A DNA stretch of 64,000 nt, taken from the NCBI RefSeq assembly GCF_035621495.1, contig NZ_CP141821.1, positions 186,001-250,000 of the forward strand. Reading direction: 5' to 3'. The stretch's first letter is position 1, and every line of letters starts with the position of its first letter. Under the pieces are notes generated by a model, which saw only the letters and a program-made list of their open reading frames with translations, was not told the DNA's origin and did no database searches. This DNA comes from Thermococcus sp. SY098. GTDB taxonomy: Archaea > Methanobacteriota_B > Thermococci > Thermococcales > Thermococcaceae. Made by a program: the position numbers and the translations under genes. Below are positions 54,974 to 61,163 of the stretch, one piece after another.

Positions 54974-55014
54974 AAATTAAAAACGATTCAGCATAATTTC
55001 CCATGGTGATGCTC

Positions 55015-56151
55015 ATGCAGTTCTTCAGCTTAAAGACGAGGATAGTCTTAGGAGAAGGAAGCTTAAGCTACATAAAGAGCGTTGCAAAAAAGCACAGCAG
55101 AGTTTTAATATTCTCAAGCAAATCAATGAGGGTTCACGGGTTTTTAAATGAGGCAATGAACTATGTGGAAGATGCAAATGCAGAGGTTGAAGCAATAACC
55201 GGAGTTCCAGCAGAGCCGAGCTATGAATACGTCGAAAGTATAATGCCAAAGGTCAGAGAGTTCCAGCCCGATTTGATCATTGCCCTTGGTGGGGGGAGTG
55301 TAATTGACGTGGCAAAGGCAGTTAAGGTTTTCTATGATGCCCCAGAGCTTAAGTTTGAGGAGGTAGCTTTTATCAGCCGCTTCGAGAAGCCAAAGCCGAT
55401 CCCTAAGCTCAAGACTCCGTTAATAGCAATCCCTTCAACGAGCGGAGCCGGGAGTGAGGTTTCAGCAGCAAGCGTTCTTAAAAAAGGAGATATCAAATAC
55501 AACTTGGTAAACTTTGAAATTGCTCCAGAGTTTGCAATTCTCGATCCAAGGTTGCCGAGGACAATGCCAAAAGAAGTTGCGAGGAACTCTGGTTTAGATG
55601 TTCTGGTTCACGGAATTGAGGCTTATACAACAACCGCAGCGACACCCTTCAGCGATGCAATGGCGATCAAAGCCATAAAGCTCGTCTACAAGTGGTTACC
55701 GCTCTCAGTTCAAGGTGATGAAAAGGCAAGAGAAAATGTCCACTACGCAGCGACAATGGCTGGAATAGCTTTTCTTAATGCCCGTTTAGGATTGTGCCAC
55801 AGCTTAAGCCATAAAGCAGCTTGGATTGCTCCTCACGGCTTATTAAATGCAATATTCTTGCCTCATGTTATGGAGTTCAACATGAGGAGCGAATATGCAA
55901 GAAAACGCTATGCAGAGATAGCAAGAGAGCTGAACCTAAGAACTGCCCAAGAGCTGATTGAAGTCATCAAAGAGTTCAATGAGATGCTTGGAGTTCCAAA
56001 GCTGAGTGAACTTGTAAGTGAAGAAGAATTCCTTTCAAAGCTTGACGAAATGAGCGAAAAAGCCTACCACGATCCACTGATAAACTTCAATCCAGTTGAG
56101 CCAAGCGCTGAGGAAATAAAAGAGCTGTATGAAAAGGCTTTTTACGATTGA
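55015..56151 (+). CDS. Iron-containing alcohol dehydrogenase
   Basis: A 378-residue group III alcohol dehydrogenase. Cofactor binding is by ALGGGSVIDVAKAVKVF, and TPLIAIPSTSGAGSEVS follows. Iron ligands lie in GLDVLVHGIEAY, LGLCHSLSHKAAW and APHGLLNAIFLPHV. It should oxidise alcohols or reduce aldehydes with NAD(P)H, as known for Thermococcus enzymes. I choose ATG 55015, five bases after GGTGAT; the ATG at 55003 precedes the ribosome binding site. Its stop overlaps the HepT-type gene on the other strand by ten bases. Confidence 0.92.
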   Translation: MQFFSLKTRIVLGEGSLSYIKSVAKKHSRVLIFSSKSMRVHGFLNEAMNYVEDANAEVEAITGVPAEPSYEYVESIMPKVREFQPDLIIALGGGSVIDVAKAVKVFYDAPELKFEEVAFISRFEKPKPIPKLKTPLIAIPSTSGAGSEVSAASVLKKGDIKYNLVNFEIAPEFAILDPRLPRTMPKEVARNSGLDVLVHGIEAYTTTAATPFSDAMAIKAIKLVYKWLPLSVQGDEKARENVHYAATMAGIAFLNARLGLCHSLSHKAAWIAPHGLLNAIFLPHVMEFNMRSEYARKRYAEIARELNLRTAQELIEVIKEFNEMLGVPKLSELVSEEEFLSKLDEMSEKAYHDPLINFNPVEPSAEEIKELYEKAFYD

Positions 56152-56555
56152 AGGATTTCTTTTACCCTTTTTACAAATCTTCTCACGGCGTCAAGGGAAT
56201 TTATTACCTCAAAGATCTCCTCCTCATCAATATCATAGTACTCATGGGCGATAGCATTACGGTAGAACACAAGACTCTCCAGCACAGTTTGAAGATTTTT
56301 GTCAATGATTCCAGCTTTTCCGAGCTCTTTAAAAATCGCTCTATATGTCTTTGGAATTCCCAACCCATATGCGAGGATTAATTCCTCCCCCAAGTCTATT
56401 ACCCTATTTAAAATAGCAAAGATAAGCATTGAAGAAGCATAGAACGTTTTTCTATCCCTTAGATCATCAACGTTCTTAATCTCCATGCTATCTAAATCAC
56501 TAAGAAACCTCTCTATATCGCTGATGATCTTTCCAATTCTCTCGATGTCAAACAT
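56142..56555 (-). CDS. HepT-type HEPN toxin
   Basis: A 137-residue HEPN/DUF86 protein with the RNase motif R-x4-H-x-Y, seen as RNAIAHEYY near residues 97-105. In HepT proteins this motif cuts RNA, and the tyrosine is the site of poly-AMPylation by the paired MntA antitoxin. Downstream of, and overlapping by eight bases, the MNT nucleotidyltransferase gene: the standard order of a HepT/MntA pair. All helical. The motif looks intact, so the toxin is probably active. Confidence 0.85.
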   Translation of the reverse strand: MFDIERIGKIISDIERFLSDLDSMEIKNVDDLRDRKTFYASSMLIFAILNRVIDLGEELILAYGLGIPKTYRAIFKELGKAGIIDKNLQTVLESLVFYRNAIAHEYYDIDEEEIFEVINSLDAVRRFVKRVKEILQS

Positions 56556-56913
56556 TACTTAGCACCCTCTTCAGATGCCTTTCTAAAAGGGGTTTAAAAT
56601 CCCAGTACTCCTTGAATGCCCTTGCTTTTATTCTATGGAGCTTTTTTTCATCTCTAACGAACAACGGCTTTCCTTCACTAAGAACTCTGAAGCGGATATA
56701 TATCGGCAAATCCCAGAAAATTGAAATATCAATCTTTCGTGAGGAAAGACTCAAAATTTCACGCCTTTGGGCTTTGGTTATTCTGGGTTCAGTTATCACG
56801 CAAATATCATAATCGGAGTATGGTTTAGCTTTTCCAGTAGCCCGAGAACCAAAGAGATAAACAGCAATGACCCATGGATACAGCTTTAATTCTTCGACAA
56901 CTTCCTCAATCAT
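56548..56913 (-). CDS. MntA-type nucleotidyltransferase antitoxin
   Basis: A 121-residue minimal nucleotidyltransferase with the motif GSRATGKAKPYSDYD (GS-x10-D-x-D, near 25-39), as in MntA enzymes that AMPylate HepT. I place the start at ATG 56913. It has no ribosome binding site but a TATA-like CTTTATTAAT 26 bases upstream, which indicates a leaderless mRNA; the TTG at 56952 would add residues coded by the promoter. The C-terminus overlaps hepT by eight bases. The promoter region is shared with the helicase gene. Confidence 0.82.
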   Translation of the reverse strand: MIEEVVEELKLYPWVIAVYLFGSRATGKAKPYSDYDICVITEPRITKAQRREILSLSSRKIDISIFWDLPIYIRFRVLSEGKPLFVRDEKKLHRIKARAFKEYWDFKPLLERHLKRVLSNV

Positions 56914-56934
56914 CAGTTGCAAATTGATATCAAA

Positions 56935-56945
56935 ATTAATAAAGG
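56935..56945. promoter_or_regulatory. Shared TATA region between mntA-type gene and Lhr helicase
   Basis: ATTAATAAAGG (plus strand) is nearly symmetric and reads as a TATA box on both strands. Its centre, 56939, is exactly 26 bases from the ATG of each divergent gene (56913 and 56965). Neither ATG has a ribosome binding site. Both mRNAs are therefore probably leaderless and start from one core promoter region. Confidence 0.5.
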
Positions 56946-56964
56946 TTACCAATTATCCACTAAC

Positions 56965-59742
56965 ATGCACATCCTCCTCAGAAAAGCCATTGGAGAAAAG
57001 TTTGGCAGGCTTAATGAACTCCAAGTTAGGGCTTTTAGGGAGATTAGCGCAGGAAAGAGTGTTTTAATTATTGCCCCCACGGGAAGCGGAAAAACTGAAG
57101 CTGCTGTTCTGCCCGTTTTAGATGCAATTTTGAAGAATGGTTTAAAACCAATCTCCGCCCTCTACATCGCTCCCATCAAAGCTCTGAACAGGGATCTGCT
57201 CGAGCGTTTGGAATGGTGGGGAGCTAAAACTGGGATTAGAGTTGAAGTAAGACACGGCGATACTTCCGCATATAAAAAAGCAAAGCAGACAAAAAACCCT
57301 CCACATCTTTTGATAATCACCCCCGAAACTCTTGGAGTTATTTTGACAATGAAATCGCTCAGAGCTTATCTGAAAAATGTCAAATTCGTCATTGTTGACG
57401 AAATAGCAGAGCTTGTTGATAATAAGAGAGGAGTACAGTTAATTTTGGGTCTTGAGCGCTTAGCTGAGATTGCAGAATTCCAACGAATCGGACTAAGCGC
57501 AACGGTTGGAAATGAGGAAGAAATTGAGGAATGGCTGAAAGCCGATGCAATTGTAAAGCCTTCGCTCAGGAAGGAGTATTCGGTAAAAGTCTTCTTTCCT
57601 TCTCCTGATGAAAGAGATTTAAAGCTTGCTGAAAAGTTAAAGCTTCCCGTAGATGTGGCAACTCGTTTGAGGGTTCTCTGGGATATTGTGGAGAAGCATA
57701 AACGGGCTTTGATTTTCACAAATACAAGGCAGTTTGCTGAAATCTTGGCTCATCGCTTAAAAGCTTGGGGCAAACCAGTCGAAGTTCATCATGGGAGTTT
57801 GTCAAAAGAAGCGAGGATACAAGCTGAGAGGTTCCTAAAAGAGGGGAAAATCAAAGCTTTGATATGCACTTCTTCTATGGAGCTCGGCATAGACATTGGA
57901 GATGTGGATGTTGTCGTTCAATACATGAGTCCGAGACAAGTAAACAGACTAATTCAGCGCATAGGGCGAGCAAGGCATAGATTGGGAGAAGTTAGCAGGG
58001 GCTACATAATCACAGCTAATGTTGAGGATTATCTTGAAAGTCTAATAATAGCCCAGAGAGCTATTGAGGGAAAGCTTGAGAGAGTTAAGCCGTATGAAAA
58101 TGCTCTCGATGTCTTAGCTCACTTCATTGTAGGCTTGCTGATTGAATACAAGCATCTGCCAAAGGATAAGCCATTTGAGATTGCCAAGAGAGCTTACCCA
58201 TACAGAAACTTAAAATGGGAAGATTATGAGGGAGTTTTAAACATCCTGCAAGAGGCTCATCTGATAGGCTATGATGAAGATAAAGGCATTCTCTTCTTGA
58301 GGAGAGGGGCTTATGCTTATTACTACGAAAATCTCTCAACGATTCCCGATGAGGTATCTTACAGAGTTTTTGACGTTTCAAGCGGGCATATAATAGGTCG
58401 TTTGGACGAGAGCTTTGTCATGGATTTGGAGGAGGGAACGGAGTTCATAATGAATGGCAAAAGTTGGATTCTCCTTGGTATTGATGAAGAAGCAAAGTTG
58501 CTCAAAGTGAGAGAGAGCAAAAGCCTTGAGAGTGCGATTCCGAGCTGGGAAGGTGAGATGATCCCCGTTCCTTTGGAAGTTGCTTTGGATGTTGGAAGAC
58601 TGAAAAGGGAGTTGCTGTTTGACTTTGAGAGAGCGAAAAGGATTATTAAAGATGTTGAATTTAACGAGGAAGAGCTGGGAAAAGCCAAGGAAATTCTCAA
58701 AATGCAAGAGCCTTTAAGCACAGATAGAGATGTTGGCATTGAATCCCTGTCAAAGGCTCTTGTAGTCCATGCGGACTTTGGGAATCAGGTTAATGAAGCC
58801 ATTGGAAGGTTTGTGTGGAGTTTCCTCTCAATGAGGTATGGTAAAGTTTTCACAATGAGAGCACAAGCCCATGCAATTGTGTTTAAAACTCCATTCCAGC
58901 TCAATCCGAGTGAAGTGAAAAGCTATCTCCTCCAAGACGGCAGAGCTTTACCCTTTGTGATTTCAAAAAGCTTAAGGGGGAGCATAATTTACAGGTGGAG
59001 AATGCTGAACGTGGCAAAGAGGATTGGCGCTTTGAGGAGAGAGGCTAAAATAAGAAAAGTTGAAAAGCTTTTTGAAGGCACGATAATTGAGAAGGAAACC
59101 CTAAATGAGCTTTTCCATGACAAGCTCGACATCGAGAATGCAACTGAAATTTTGGACAAAATAAAAAGCGGCATGATTAGAATTAAAACCACCTTAAATT
59201 CTGAACCGTCACCCCTAGCAGAGATGAATATAAACATCGGCGGAGAGTTCCTAATCAGCGGAGAGCTTGAAAGAGACGAGATCCTTGAACTGTTCAAGCA
59301 AAGGTTGTTGGATACTGAAGTTATGCTGATCTGTATAAACTGTGGCTGGAGCTCAAGAACGAAGGTTTCCCGCTTGAGAGAGCGCTTAAAGTATCTGGAG
59401 TGTCCCAAGTGTTCTTCAAGAATGATTGCCGTTGCTCATCCAATTGATGCAGAGGAATTCCTCAAAGCTTTTAAAAAGCTTAAAAGAGGTGAGAAGCTGG
59501 AAAAAAGCGAAGAGAGAGCCTACGGAAAGCTAATAAAGGCAGCCGATTTGGTTCAAAGTTACGGTTTCGATGGGGTTTTGGCTTTAGCGAGCTACGGGAC
59601 GGGGCCAGATACAGCTGCAAGACTTTTGAGCCAGTACAGAGGTGAGGCTCTGCTGGTTGCTCTGATGGAGCGTGAGAGAGAGTTCATAAGGACGAGGAGA
59701 TTCTGGGTGGACAAAGAGGAAAGGAAAGCAAAAGAGGAGTAA
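56965..59742 (+). CDS. Lhr-family large DNA/RNA helicase
   Basis: A 925-residue superfamily 2 helicase. Motif I is APTGSGKTEAAVLP, motif II VDEIAEL, motif III SATVG, and motif VI QRIGRARHR. The Lhr-specific winged-helix and C-terminal domains follow. Near the end four cysteines (CINC ... CPKC) form a zinc ribbon not present in the minimal Lhr core. Motif II reads DEIA where Lhr proteins normally have DEIH. Archaeal Lhr helicases unwind DNA or RNA:DNA hybrids and are linked to repair. It could be the aLhr1- or aLhr2-type; I cannot decide. Start ATG 56965 by promoter geometry; no ribosome binding site. Confidence 0.88.
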   Translation: MHILLRKAIGEKFGRLNELQVRAFREISAGKSVLIIAPTGSGKTEAAVLPVLDAILKNGLKPISALYIAPIKALNRDLLERLEWWGAKTGIRVEVRHGDTSAYKKAKQTKNPPHLLIITPETLGVILTMKSLRAYLKNVKFVIVDEIAELVDNKRGVQLILGLERLAEIAEFQRIGLSATVGNEEEIEEWLKADAIVKPSLRKEYSVKVFFPSPDERDLKLAEKLKLPVDVATRLRVLWDIVEKHKRALIFTNTRQFAEILAHRLKAWGKPVEVHHGSLSKEARIQAERFLKEGKIKALICTSSMELGIDIGDVDVVVQYMSPRQVNRLIQRIGRARHRLGEVSRGYIITANVEDYLESLIIAQRAIEGKLERVKPYENALDVLAHFIVGLLIEYKHLPKDKPFEIAKRAYPYRNLKWEDYEGVLNILQEAHLIGYDEDKGILFLRRGAYAYYYENLSTIPDEVSYRVFDVSSGHIIGRLDESFVMDLEEGTEFIMNGKSWILLGIDEEAKLLKVRESKSLESAIPSWEGEMIPVPLEVALDVGRLKRELLFDFERAKRIIKDVEFNEEELGKAKEILKMQEPLSTDRDVGIESLSKALVVHADFGNQVNEAIGRFVWSFLSMRYGKVFTMRAQAHAIVFKTPFQLNPSEVKSYLLQDGRALPFVISKSLRGSIIYRWRMLNVAKRIGALRREAKIRKVEKLFEGTIIEKETLNELFHDKLDIENATEILDKIKSGMIRIKTTLNSEPSPLAEMNINIGGEFLISGELERDEILELFKQRLLDTEVMLICINCGWSSRTKVSRLRERLKYLECPKCSSRMIAVAHPIDAEEFLKAFKKLKRGEKLEKSEERAYGKLIKAADLVQSYGFDGVLALASYGTGPDTAARLLSQYRGEALLVALMEREREFIRTRRFWVDKEERKAKEE

Positions 59743-59768: not shown

Positions 59769-61163
59769 TCATAAGCATTTCTTCCCAATAAGCCTTTTGA
59801 AGTCTTTCAAATCCCAGACGAGCCAGTTTTCGGCTCTTAGCTTTTCTTTAGCTTTCACATTCTTCGCCACAACGCCGTAAAGTTTCTCCCATCCCTCCAA
59901 TCCCCCGAGTTCACTTTTCCTCTCTAGATCTTCCAAAATCCCCTTAGCTTCTCTTTCGCTCAGCTCCTTCCATTTCACCTCAACGAAGAGAGCCGTCTTC
60001 TCCCTTTCGTTTAACCCAACGAGGTCAATCTCCTCGTTTTTGTGCCACCACCTTCCAATTTTCATGAACCCGAAAGGCAACTCTTTCCGTTTATTCAGCT
60101 CAATAAGAAACTGCTTTGCAATTTCCTCAAAAACCCAGCCGAGGTAGCTGTTGAAGTCTTCCATCACGAGCTCAACGAGCTCTTTTTTCTGTCCAGTCTC
60201 TATCAAATCTGAGTTGGGATAAACATAGCGGAACCAAAAGGCAAAATACGGGTCAGTTATGTAGTATCTCCCCTTCCTGGTCTTCCAGCTTGCTGTTATG
60301 GGAATTTCTCTTCGCACTAAGTCGAGGTCAATGAGAACACTTAAGTATTTCCCTACAGTGGACCTCTCTAAACTCGTTTCGTTTACGATTTCATTGAGCG
60401 TAGTTTTTCCCCTTGCTATCGCCTCCATTATGGCGAAGTAATTTCTCGGCTCTTCAAGCTCCTCCCTTAGGATGAAAAGTGCATCTCCATAGAGGAACGA
60501 ATCCGGTCTGAAGTAATCCAGCAGATTCTCTTCAACGCTTTTTTCATCATTGAACTCAAGAAGATAGGCTGGGGTCCCTCCCAGTATTCCGTAGACCTTT
60601 ACAAACTCCTCAAGTGGATACCGCGGAAAGAATTCCTTCGCACTGAAAAAACTCAGGGGTTTGAGCTTAATCTGTGCAGTTCTTCTGCCGTAGAGGGGGC
60701 TTTTATAACCGAGGAGCTTTTCCATCATGGAAACGCTGGAGCCGCAGATTATGAGGAATATCTTTCCCTGCAAGAGCTTTAAATCCCAGTATTCCTGCAA
60801 TATCGAGGGCAAGGCCTTGTTTCCTTTCATGATGTAGGGAAACTCATCAATAACGATAATAAACCTATCTTTGAGAGATTTTTGATAAAGATACTCGAAA
60901 AACGCGTCCCAGCTCTGAAGTGGATTTTTCCTCAGAAATTCATCGTTAAAATAATCAGCTAACTTTTCCGAGAAGCGTTTTAGATTCTCAGTTTCACTCG
61001 TTTCCCTTGCGAGAAGATAAAGCCCTCCATGTTTTTTTATGAACTCAAGCAGCAGAGCTGTCTTTCCAACCCTCCTTCTTCCGTATACAACTATAAATTC
61101 TGCTCTTCCCCTTTCCAACCTCTCCTCAAGCAACCTAATCTCGGTTTCCCTATCGATGAACAT
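59769..61163 (-). CDS. Archaeal AAA ATPase with DUF234 domain
   Basis: A 464-residue protein of the archaeal ATPase/DUF234 family. It has Walker A GRRRVGKTALL (near 28-38), Walker B FIIVIDEFPYI (near 101-111), a winged-helix region (LNEIVNETSLERSTVGKYLS) and a C-terminal DUF234 nuclease-like domain with IDLVGLNEREKTALFVEVKWKE (D...E-x-K pattern). The family is abundant in Thermococcales, often variable between strains, and its task is unknown. The ATG follows GGTGAGTATATAAT, and a perfect palindrome lies just upstream. It converges on the Lhr gene with a 26-base gap. Confidence 0.85.
   Translation of the reverse strand: MFIDRETEIRLLEERLERGRAEFIVVYGRRRVGKTALLLEFIKKHGGLYLLARETSETENLKRFSEKLADYFNDEFLRKNPLQSWDAFFEYLYQKSLKDRFIIVIDEFPYIMKGNKALPSILQEYWDLKLLQGKIFLIICGSSVSMMEKLLGYKSPLYGRRTAQIKLKPLSFFSAKEFFPRYPLEEFVKVYGILGGTPAYLLEFNDEKSVEENLLDYFRPDSFLYGDALFILREELEEPRNYFAIMEAIARGKTTLNEIVNETSLERSTVGKYLSVLIDLDLVRREIPITASWKTRKGRYYITDPYFAFWFRYVYPNSDLIETGQKKELVELVMEDFNSYLGWVFEEIAKQFLIELNKRKELPFGFMKIGRWWHKNEEIDLVGLNEREKTALFVEVKWKELSEREAKGILEDLERKSELGGLEGWEKLYGVVAKNVKAKEKLRAENWLVWDLKDFKRLIGKKCL

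Follow-up and report, generated by a model that had tools for sequence, protein, structure and literature searches.

How are two divergent genes transcribed when their start codons lie only 52 bases apart? This question is raised by a locus in the window analysed here, a 64-kb stretch of a Thermococcaceae genome (single contig of 2.03 Mb, bases 186001-250000), in which mntA (A of its ATG at 56913, minus strand) and the helicase gene aLhr2 (A of its ATG at 56965, plus strand) point away from each other. We consider it probable, at about 70%, that the 51-bp gap between them holds one bidirectional core promoter, leaderless in both directions, which would have arisen through insertion of a toxin-antitoxin cassette.

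The gene identities proposed in the first-pass annotation of this DNA hold up against NCBIfam and Pfam: the genes are a type VII MntA/HepT pair and the Lhr-family helicase aLhr2 (Table 1). MntA and HepT both pass the curated NCBIfam cut-offs. A GSX10DXD motif (GSRATGKAKPYSDYD) can be read from the window MntA protein and RNAIAHEY, an instance of RX4HXY, from the hepT product, and a sequence comparison of HepT with solved chains gives HEPN toxins as the nearest. In class I systems, which carry these two motifs, MntA adenylylates and neutralises HepT, as shown for pairs that include that of Thermococcus cleftensis CL1 (PMC7641770). The window pair, a predicted antitoxin and toxin, resembles those systems in its class I domains, signature motifs and gene order, mntA then hepT, and differs in its neighbour, aLhr2, and in the predicted sharing of a promoter with that gene. 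The helicase has the Lhr domain order and is orthologous to the aLhr2 of T. barophilus (TERMP_00533, PMC8301817). It is the same gene: the proteins of the window and of T. barophilus MP are 97% identical, and that strain shares the insertion and the promoter. Neither a toxin-antitoxin module nor the promoter is mentioned in the main text of the aLhr2 neighbourhood analysis (PMC8301817). In our set of genomes the window genome is G000 and T. barophilus MP, among its closest relatives there, is G015, identified through its second contig, which matches plasmid NC_015471.1 at 100%; G027 was also among the relatives compared.

Alternative start codons were considered and rejected. The longest aLhr2 frame begins at TTG 56917, but it is ATG 56965 that opens the conserved MHxLLxK. 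For mntA, TTG 56952 is not a start codon in G015 or G027, and another TTG, 9 nt before the ATG and kept in relatives, would be 14 nt from the TATA, upstream of any likely transcription start. Beyond aLhr2, a convergent archaeal ATPase gene (ATPase_2 and DUF234; 59769-61163, minus strand) ends 27 bp past the aLhr2 stop.

Table 1. Genes and predicted promoter elements of the locus, in window positions
Feature	Position	Strand	Basis or remark
Iron-containing alcohol dehydrogenase (ADH)	55003..56151	+	Pfam Fe-ADH/ADH_Fe_C; ancestral upstream neighbour of aLhr2; last codons form the left insertion edge
hepT, HEPN RNase toxin, type VII module	56142..56555	-	NCBIfam NF047751, 71.4 bits (cut-off 60); Pfam PF01934
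mntA, adenylyltransferase antitoxin	56548..56913	-	NCBIfam NF047752, 74.2 bits (cut-off 60); ATG 56913 is the gene caller's choice
aLhr2, Lhr-family SF2 DNA/RNA helicase, 925 aa	56965..59742	+	Pfam DEAD, Helicase_C, WH_Lhr, DEAD_assoc
Inserted segment (mntA-hepT and new intergenic DNA), ~0.8 kb	56148..56963		Edges approximate to a few bases
Predicted BRE+TATA of aLhr2 (ATCAAAA TTAATAA), ATCAAAATTAATAA	56929-56942	+	Weight matrix 7.5 bits; spacer 22 nt to ATG
Predicted BRE+TATA of mntA (GGTAACC TTTATTA), GGTAACCTTTATTA	56937-56950	-	Weight matrix 7.5 bits; spacer 23 nt to ATG
Predicted shared TATA octamer, TTAATAAA / TTTATTAA	56936-56943	both	Overlap of the two best sites

Promoters were predicted with a BRE+TATA weight matrix trained on 270 upstream regions, with genes called in 464 kb of the genome. 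The motif learned consists of C-R-A-A-A followed by (T/C)TTWWAA, with two bases under little constraint between them. Distances from the motif to the start codon are bimodal, with a leaderless peak at 22-24 nt and a larger peak at 31-36 nt for genes with short leaders. Leaderless mRNAs account for ~14% of T. kodakarensis mRNAs (PMC4247193) and for 117 genes in T. onnurineus (PMC5316973). A scan of the locus for terminators and for sigma-70 promoters, the latter not the right promoter type here, gave nothing above shuffled sequences.

At the locus, the best predicted site on each strand uses the same bases: the TATA cores (56936-56942 on the plus strand, 56937-56943 on the minus strand) are offset by 1 bp. 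The earlier proposal of one core promoter for both directions is supported to this extent. Both sites are modest, below median strength, with ~22% of the genome's transcription-unit promoters scoring lower, and they keep 7.3 bits (aLhr2) and 7.2 bits (mntA) when the locus is left out of matrix training. The left flank, ATCAAAA, fits RRAAA and the right flank, GGTAACC on the minus strand, fits poorly, with equal total scores. As the first-pass annotation had noted, neither ATG is preceded by a ribosome-binding match, here of at least 4 bases, compared with 76% of called genes. Both genes are thus predicted to be leaderless, as that annotation had also proposed, lacking such a site and having a TATA ~23 nt before the start codon, within the leaderless peak. 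Starts located at the ATGs would be 51-52 bp apart.

The symmetry once claimed for this element needs qualification. The TATA region had been described as symmetric and centred on 56939, exactly 26 bases from both ATGs. The ATG positions are correct, but 56939 is simply their midpoint; such a point exists for every pair of positions, and the equality is arithmetic and no evidence. TTAATAAA is not self-complementary, so its symmetry is approximate, although a perfect 6-bp dyad, ATTAAT, lies at 56935-56940. Conservation of the spacing, which had been suggested as a check, does hold: the 51-bp gap keeps its length in G015 and G027 and differs there by 1-2 substitutions, and gap divergence among the three genomes is 2-4% compared with ~12% at aLhr2 four-fold sites. 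However, only these three close genomes carry the arrangement, and its conservation is therefore weakly informative. The short flanking palindromes TTGATATCAA and GGTTACC were considered as operators and rejected; they are broken in G015 and/or G027.

We propose that the gap is arranged as BRE-TATA-BRE and that TBP would bind the shared octamer. With TFB on the left A-rich element (56929-56935), RNA polymerase would be directed rightward and would start at or next to the aLhr2 ATG; with TFB on the right element (56944-56950), it would be directed leftward and would start at or within a base of the mntA ATG. The base at -1 of mntA is G rather than a pyrimidine, and the sequence would better suit initiation one base further upstream (T/G). 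The two events would be mutually exclusive, and both mRNAs would be leaderless and translated as such.

How did a helicase gene come to have such a promoter? In the sister species G005, G010 and G019, as in many other relatives, ADH directly abuts aLhr2. Their DNA is 92-94% identical to that of the window up to the end of ADH and again from the aLhr2 ATG, and between these points it is unalignable, from which it follows that the insertion removed the original aLhr2 promoter, within ~50 bp of replaced DNA. In the sister species this ancestral promoter, CAAAACTCTTTTAA, scores 11.9 bits with a spacer of 21; it differs from the shared site and is stronger. The whole segment, like MntA orthologues at this place, is confined, among 81 Thermococcaceae genomes, to 3 (G000, G015 and G027), which cluster on the aLhr2 tree (support 87/99), consistent with a single insertion. 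We propose that the mntA-hepT cassette entered between ADH and aLhr2 in an ancestor of a small clade that includes T. barophilus, apparently once, and that the helicase would since have been transcribed from the edge of the cassette in the same leaderless register as in its relatives. No donor was found for the cassette: the best other MntA, in G083, is 53% identical and belongs to another family, and the fragment seen has no HepT-like ORF of at least 60 aa after it. The fate of the toxin gene varies. It is intact in the window genome and G027, and in T. barophilus MP a one-base insertion near codon 50 (about window position 56405) causes an early stop and loss of the RNase motif, although a sequencing error is possible; mntA and the gap with its shared promoter are intact in that strain.

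Other genomes show further occupants of the same slot. In 14 other Thermococcaceae genomes (loci L028, L031, L063, L069, L073, L074, L076, L077, L079, L081, L085, L086, L089 and L092) a VapC (PIN) gene, or what remains of one, lies directly before aLhr2 on the same strand, preceded in L028 by an AF2212-like antitoxin gene; even in genomes where vapC has otherwise decayed, its final 33 bp persist. These genes and remnants indicate that toxin-antitoxin modules have entered the slot on more than one occasion. In L013 (G039), an ORF that looks TnpB-like occupies the slot, from -1311 to -57 relative to the aLhr2 ATG.

Evidence for the aLhr2 side of the promoter comes from the relatives. The gene is present in all 81 genomes searched, although some matches are partial in fragmented assemblies, and a scan of genome contigs with aLhr2 yielded nothing further except MAGs and distant Methanoperedens-type relatives. 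All 70 upstream regions read agree on the start codon, that of MHxLLxK. Of the 67 relatives that lack the cassette, 60 have their highest-scoring promoter-like site at 21-25 nt from the aLhr2 ATG; in the remaining 7 the best score falls within the coding end of ADH, yet TTTTTAAA is still in register. These 67 relatives share kinship and are not independent, and they represent about half a dozen distinct upstream contexts, including the end of ADH, a divergent transporter gene and the end of VapC. Since the register is the same despite these differing contexts, leaderless transcription of aLhr2 is very probable throughout the family. In the window, the shared site is the sole promoter-like site within 150 bp of aLhr2, and other plus-strand sites within 400 nt of its ATG would give leaders of ~130 nt or more. 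Because the ancestral promoter was replaced, aLhr2 very probably depends on the shared site, and this replacement, as judged from the alignments, is the best reason to think that the shared TATA drives the helicase.

Could the match nevertheless be largely an accident of an AT-rich gap, with transcription of aLhr2, mntA or both beginning at sites that escaped recognition or arriving by read-through? The AT content of the gap is 73%, and among 5000 dinucleotide shuffles of it an equally good site arises singly in 3% on the plus strand and 1% on the minus strand. However, both strands together reach at least 7.4 bits in leaderless register in just 0.18% of the shuffles, and chance composition would not predict that aLhr2 keeps its register across unrelated upstream contexts. 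Read-through into aLhr2 is impossible from the antisense mntA-hepT and unlikely from ADH, which is 0.8 kb off across antisense genes. We regard an accident of composition as very improbable.

The case for mntA is weaker than that for aLhr2. It is built on one motif match, its register, the missing ribosome-binding site and the habit of other Thermococcus MNT genes: in most distant homologues the best site precedes an ATG by 21-23 nt. The mntA site is the only minus-strand site of at least 5 bits within 140 nt of its ATG, but an equal score of 7.5 bits is reached inside aLhr2 at 57062-57075, 148 nt upstream of the mntA ATG. The TATA may then serve aLhr2 only, with mntA-hepT transcribed from that internal site behind a leader of ~125 nt, or as weak divergent noise. 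The poor mntA BRE would fit such an arrangement, as would the view that most divergent transcription from promoters of this kind is noise (PMC6640164). However, a ribosome-binding site would be expected on an mRNA with so long a leader and mntA has none, most related MNT genes are in the leaderless register, and a 7.5-bit site within several hundred bp is unsurprising by chance when ~0.1% of positions in this genome score 7-8 bits. On balance, we find it unlikely that aLhr2 alone uses the element.

Two-way TATA elements are a general property of this genome's promoters. In a sample of 864 kb that includes the window (G000:C1:1-180000 and 186001-870000), 25 of the 117 divergent pairs with a site of at least 5 bits on both strands share a TATA core, and 19% of 212 promoters of at least 7 bits reach 7.4 bits on the reverse strand with the same core, compared with 3.7% of control positions. 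The pair described here is the only one of the 25 in which both spacers are 20-25 nt; another pair, 58 bp apart, has spacers of 26 and 23. Symmetric promoters of bacteria and archaea are reported by Warman et al. in 2021 (Nat Microbiol; cited in PMC12825309) to give mutually exclusive two-way initiation. In P. furiosus, bidirectional promoters have a BRE-TATA-BRE arrangement with starts ~50 bp apart, both strands are transcribed in vitro at similar levels, and the reverse BREs are also weaker (PMC6640164). The predicted promoter resembles that of PF1918 in its one TATA, in its candidate BREs on both flanks, of which the right one fits poorly, and in its start spacing (49 bp measured for PF1918, 51-52 bp predicted here), and symmetric TBP binding is the cause in P. 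furiosus and the likely one here (PMC6640164). The second P. furiosus transcript is mostly antisense and non-coding, and most of this divergent transcription is treated as noise (PMC6640164), whereas here there are coding genes both ways with ATGs at the predicted starts. Bacterial divergent promoters differ in that they rely on a -10 element and their starts are usually separated by 18 bp (PMC10268837). By analogy with the published two-way promoters, competing use of the shared element is plausible. The mechanism is already known in these archaea, and the locus is a neat example of it rather than a new mechanism; what appears unusual is the leaderless register on both sides together with the history of promoter replacement.

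Does sharing a promoter connect the toxin to the helicase? The first-pass annotation had suggested that the arrangement couples a HEPN RNase module to a nucleic-acid helicase. A role in RNA metabolism has been linked to aLhr2 in Thermococcales (PMC8301817), and toxin-antitoxin modules occupy the same slot in other Thermococcus genomes, which would fit such a reading. However, the pairing is confined to one clade, apparently through a single insertion, and most relatives lacking the module have leaderless-register promoters at aLhr2 all the same. Moreover, in T. barophilus MP hepT is broken and the rest intact, and the other occupants of the slot (VapC/AF2212-like, TnpB-like) are unrelated. Finally, because TATA sharing between divergent genes is frequent in this genome, sharing does not imply functional coupling. 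Functional coupling of RNase and helicase is thus unlikely, and we give very little credence to the divergent arrangement being a selected regulatory link between them.

Why, then, would the cassette persist? A two-way promoter that belongs to a toxin-antitoxin cassette and replaces that of a helicase may act as a retention device: the cassette could not be cleanly deleted without silencing the helicase and would thus be difficult to lose. This idea is speculative, and we are inclined to doubt it. If true, it would explain why the promoter and mntA survived the decay of hepT in T. barophilus MP, and why other Thermococcus genomes retain, before aLhr2, the final 33 bp of an inserted vapC that has otherwise decayed.

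Altogether, the locus offers a compact natural test of whether one archaeal TATA can serve two protein-coding genes by competition, and of whether the insertion of a selfish module rewires host promoters. The sister species represent the state before the insertion and T. barophilus MP, for which gene-deletion tools exist (PMC5852573), the state after it. If one TATA serves both directions, mutating a single base of either BRE should tilt output towards the antitoxin-toxin pair or towards the helicase.
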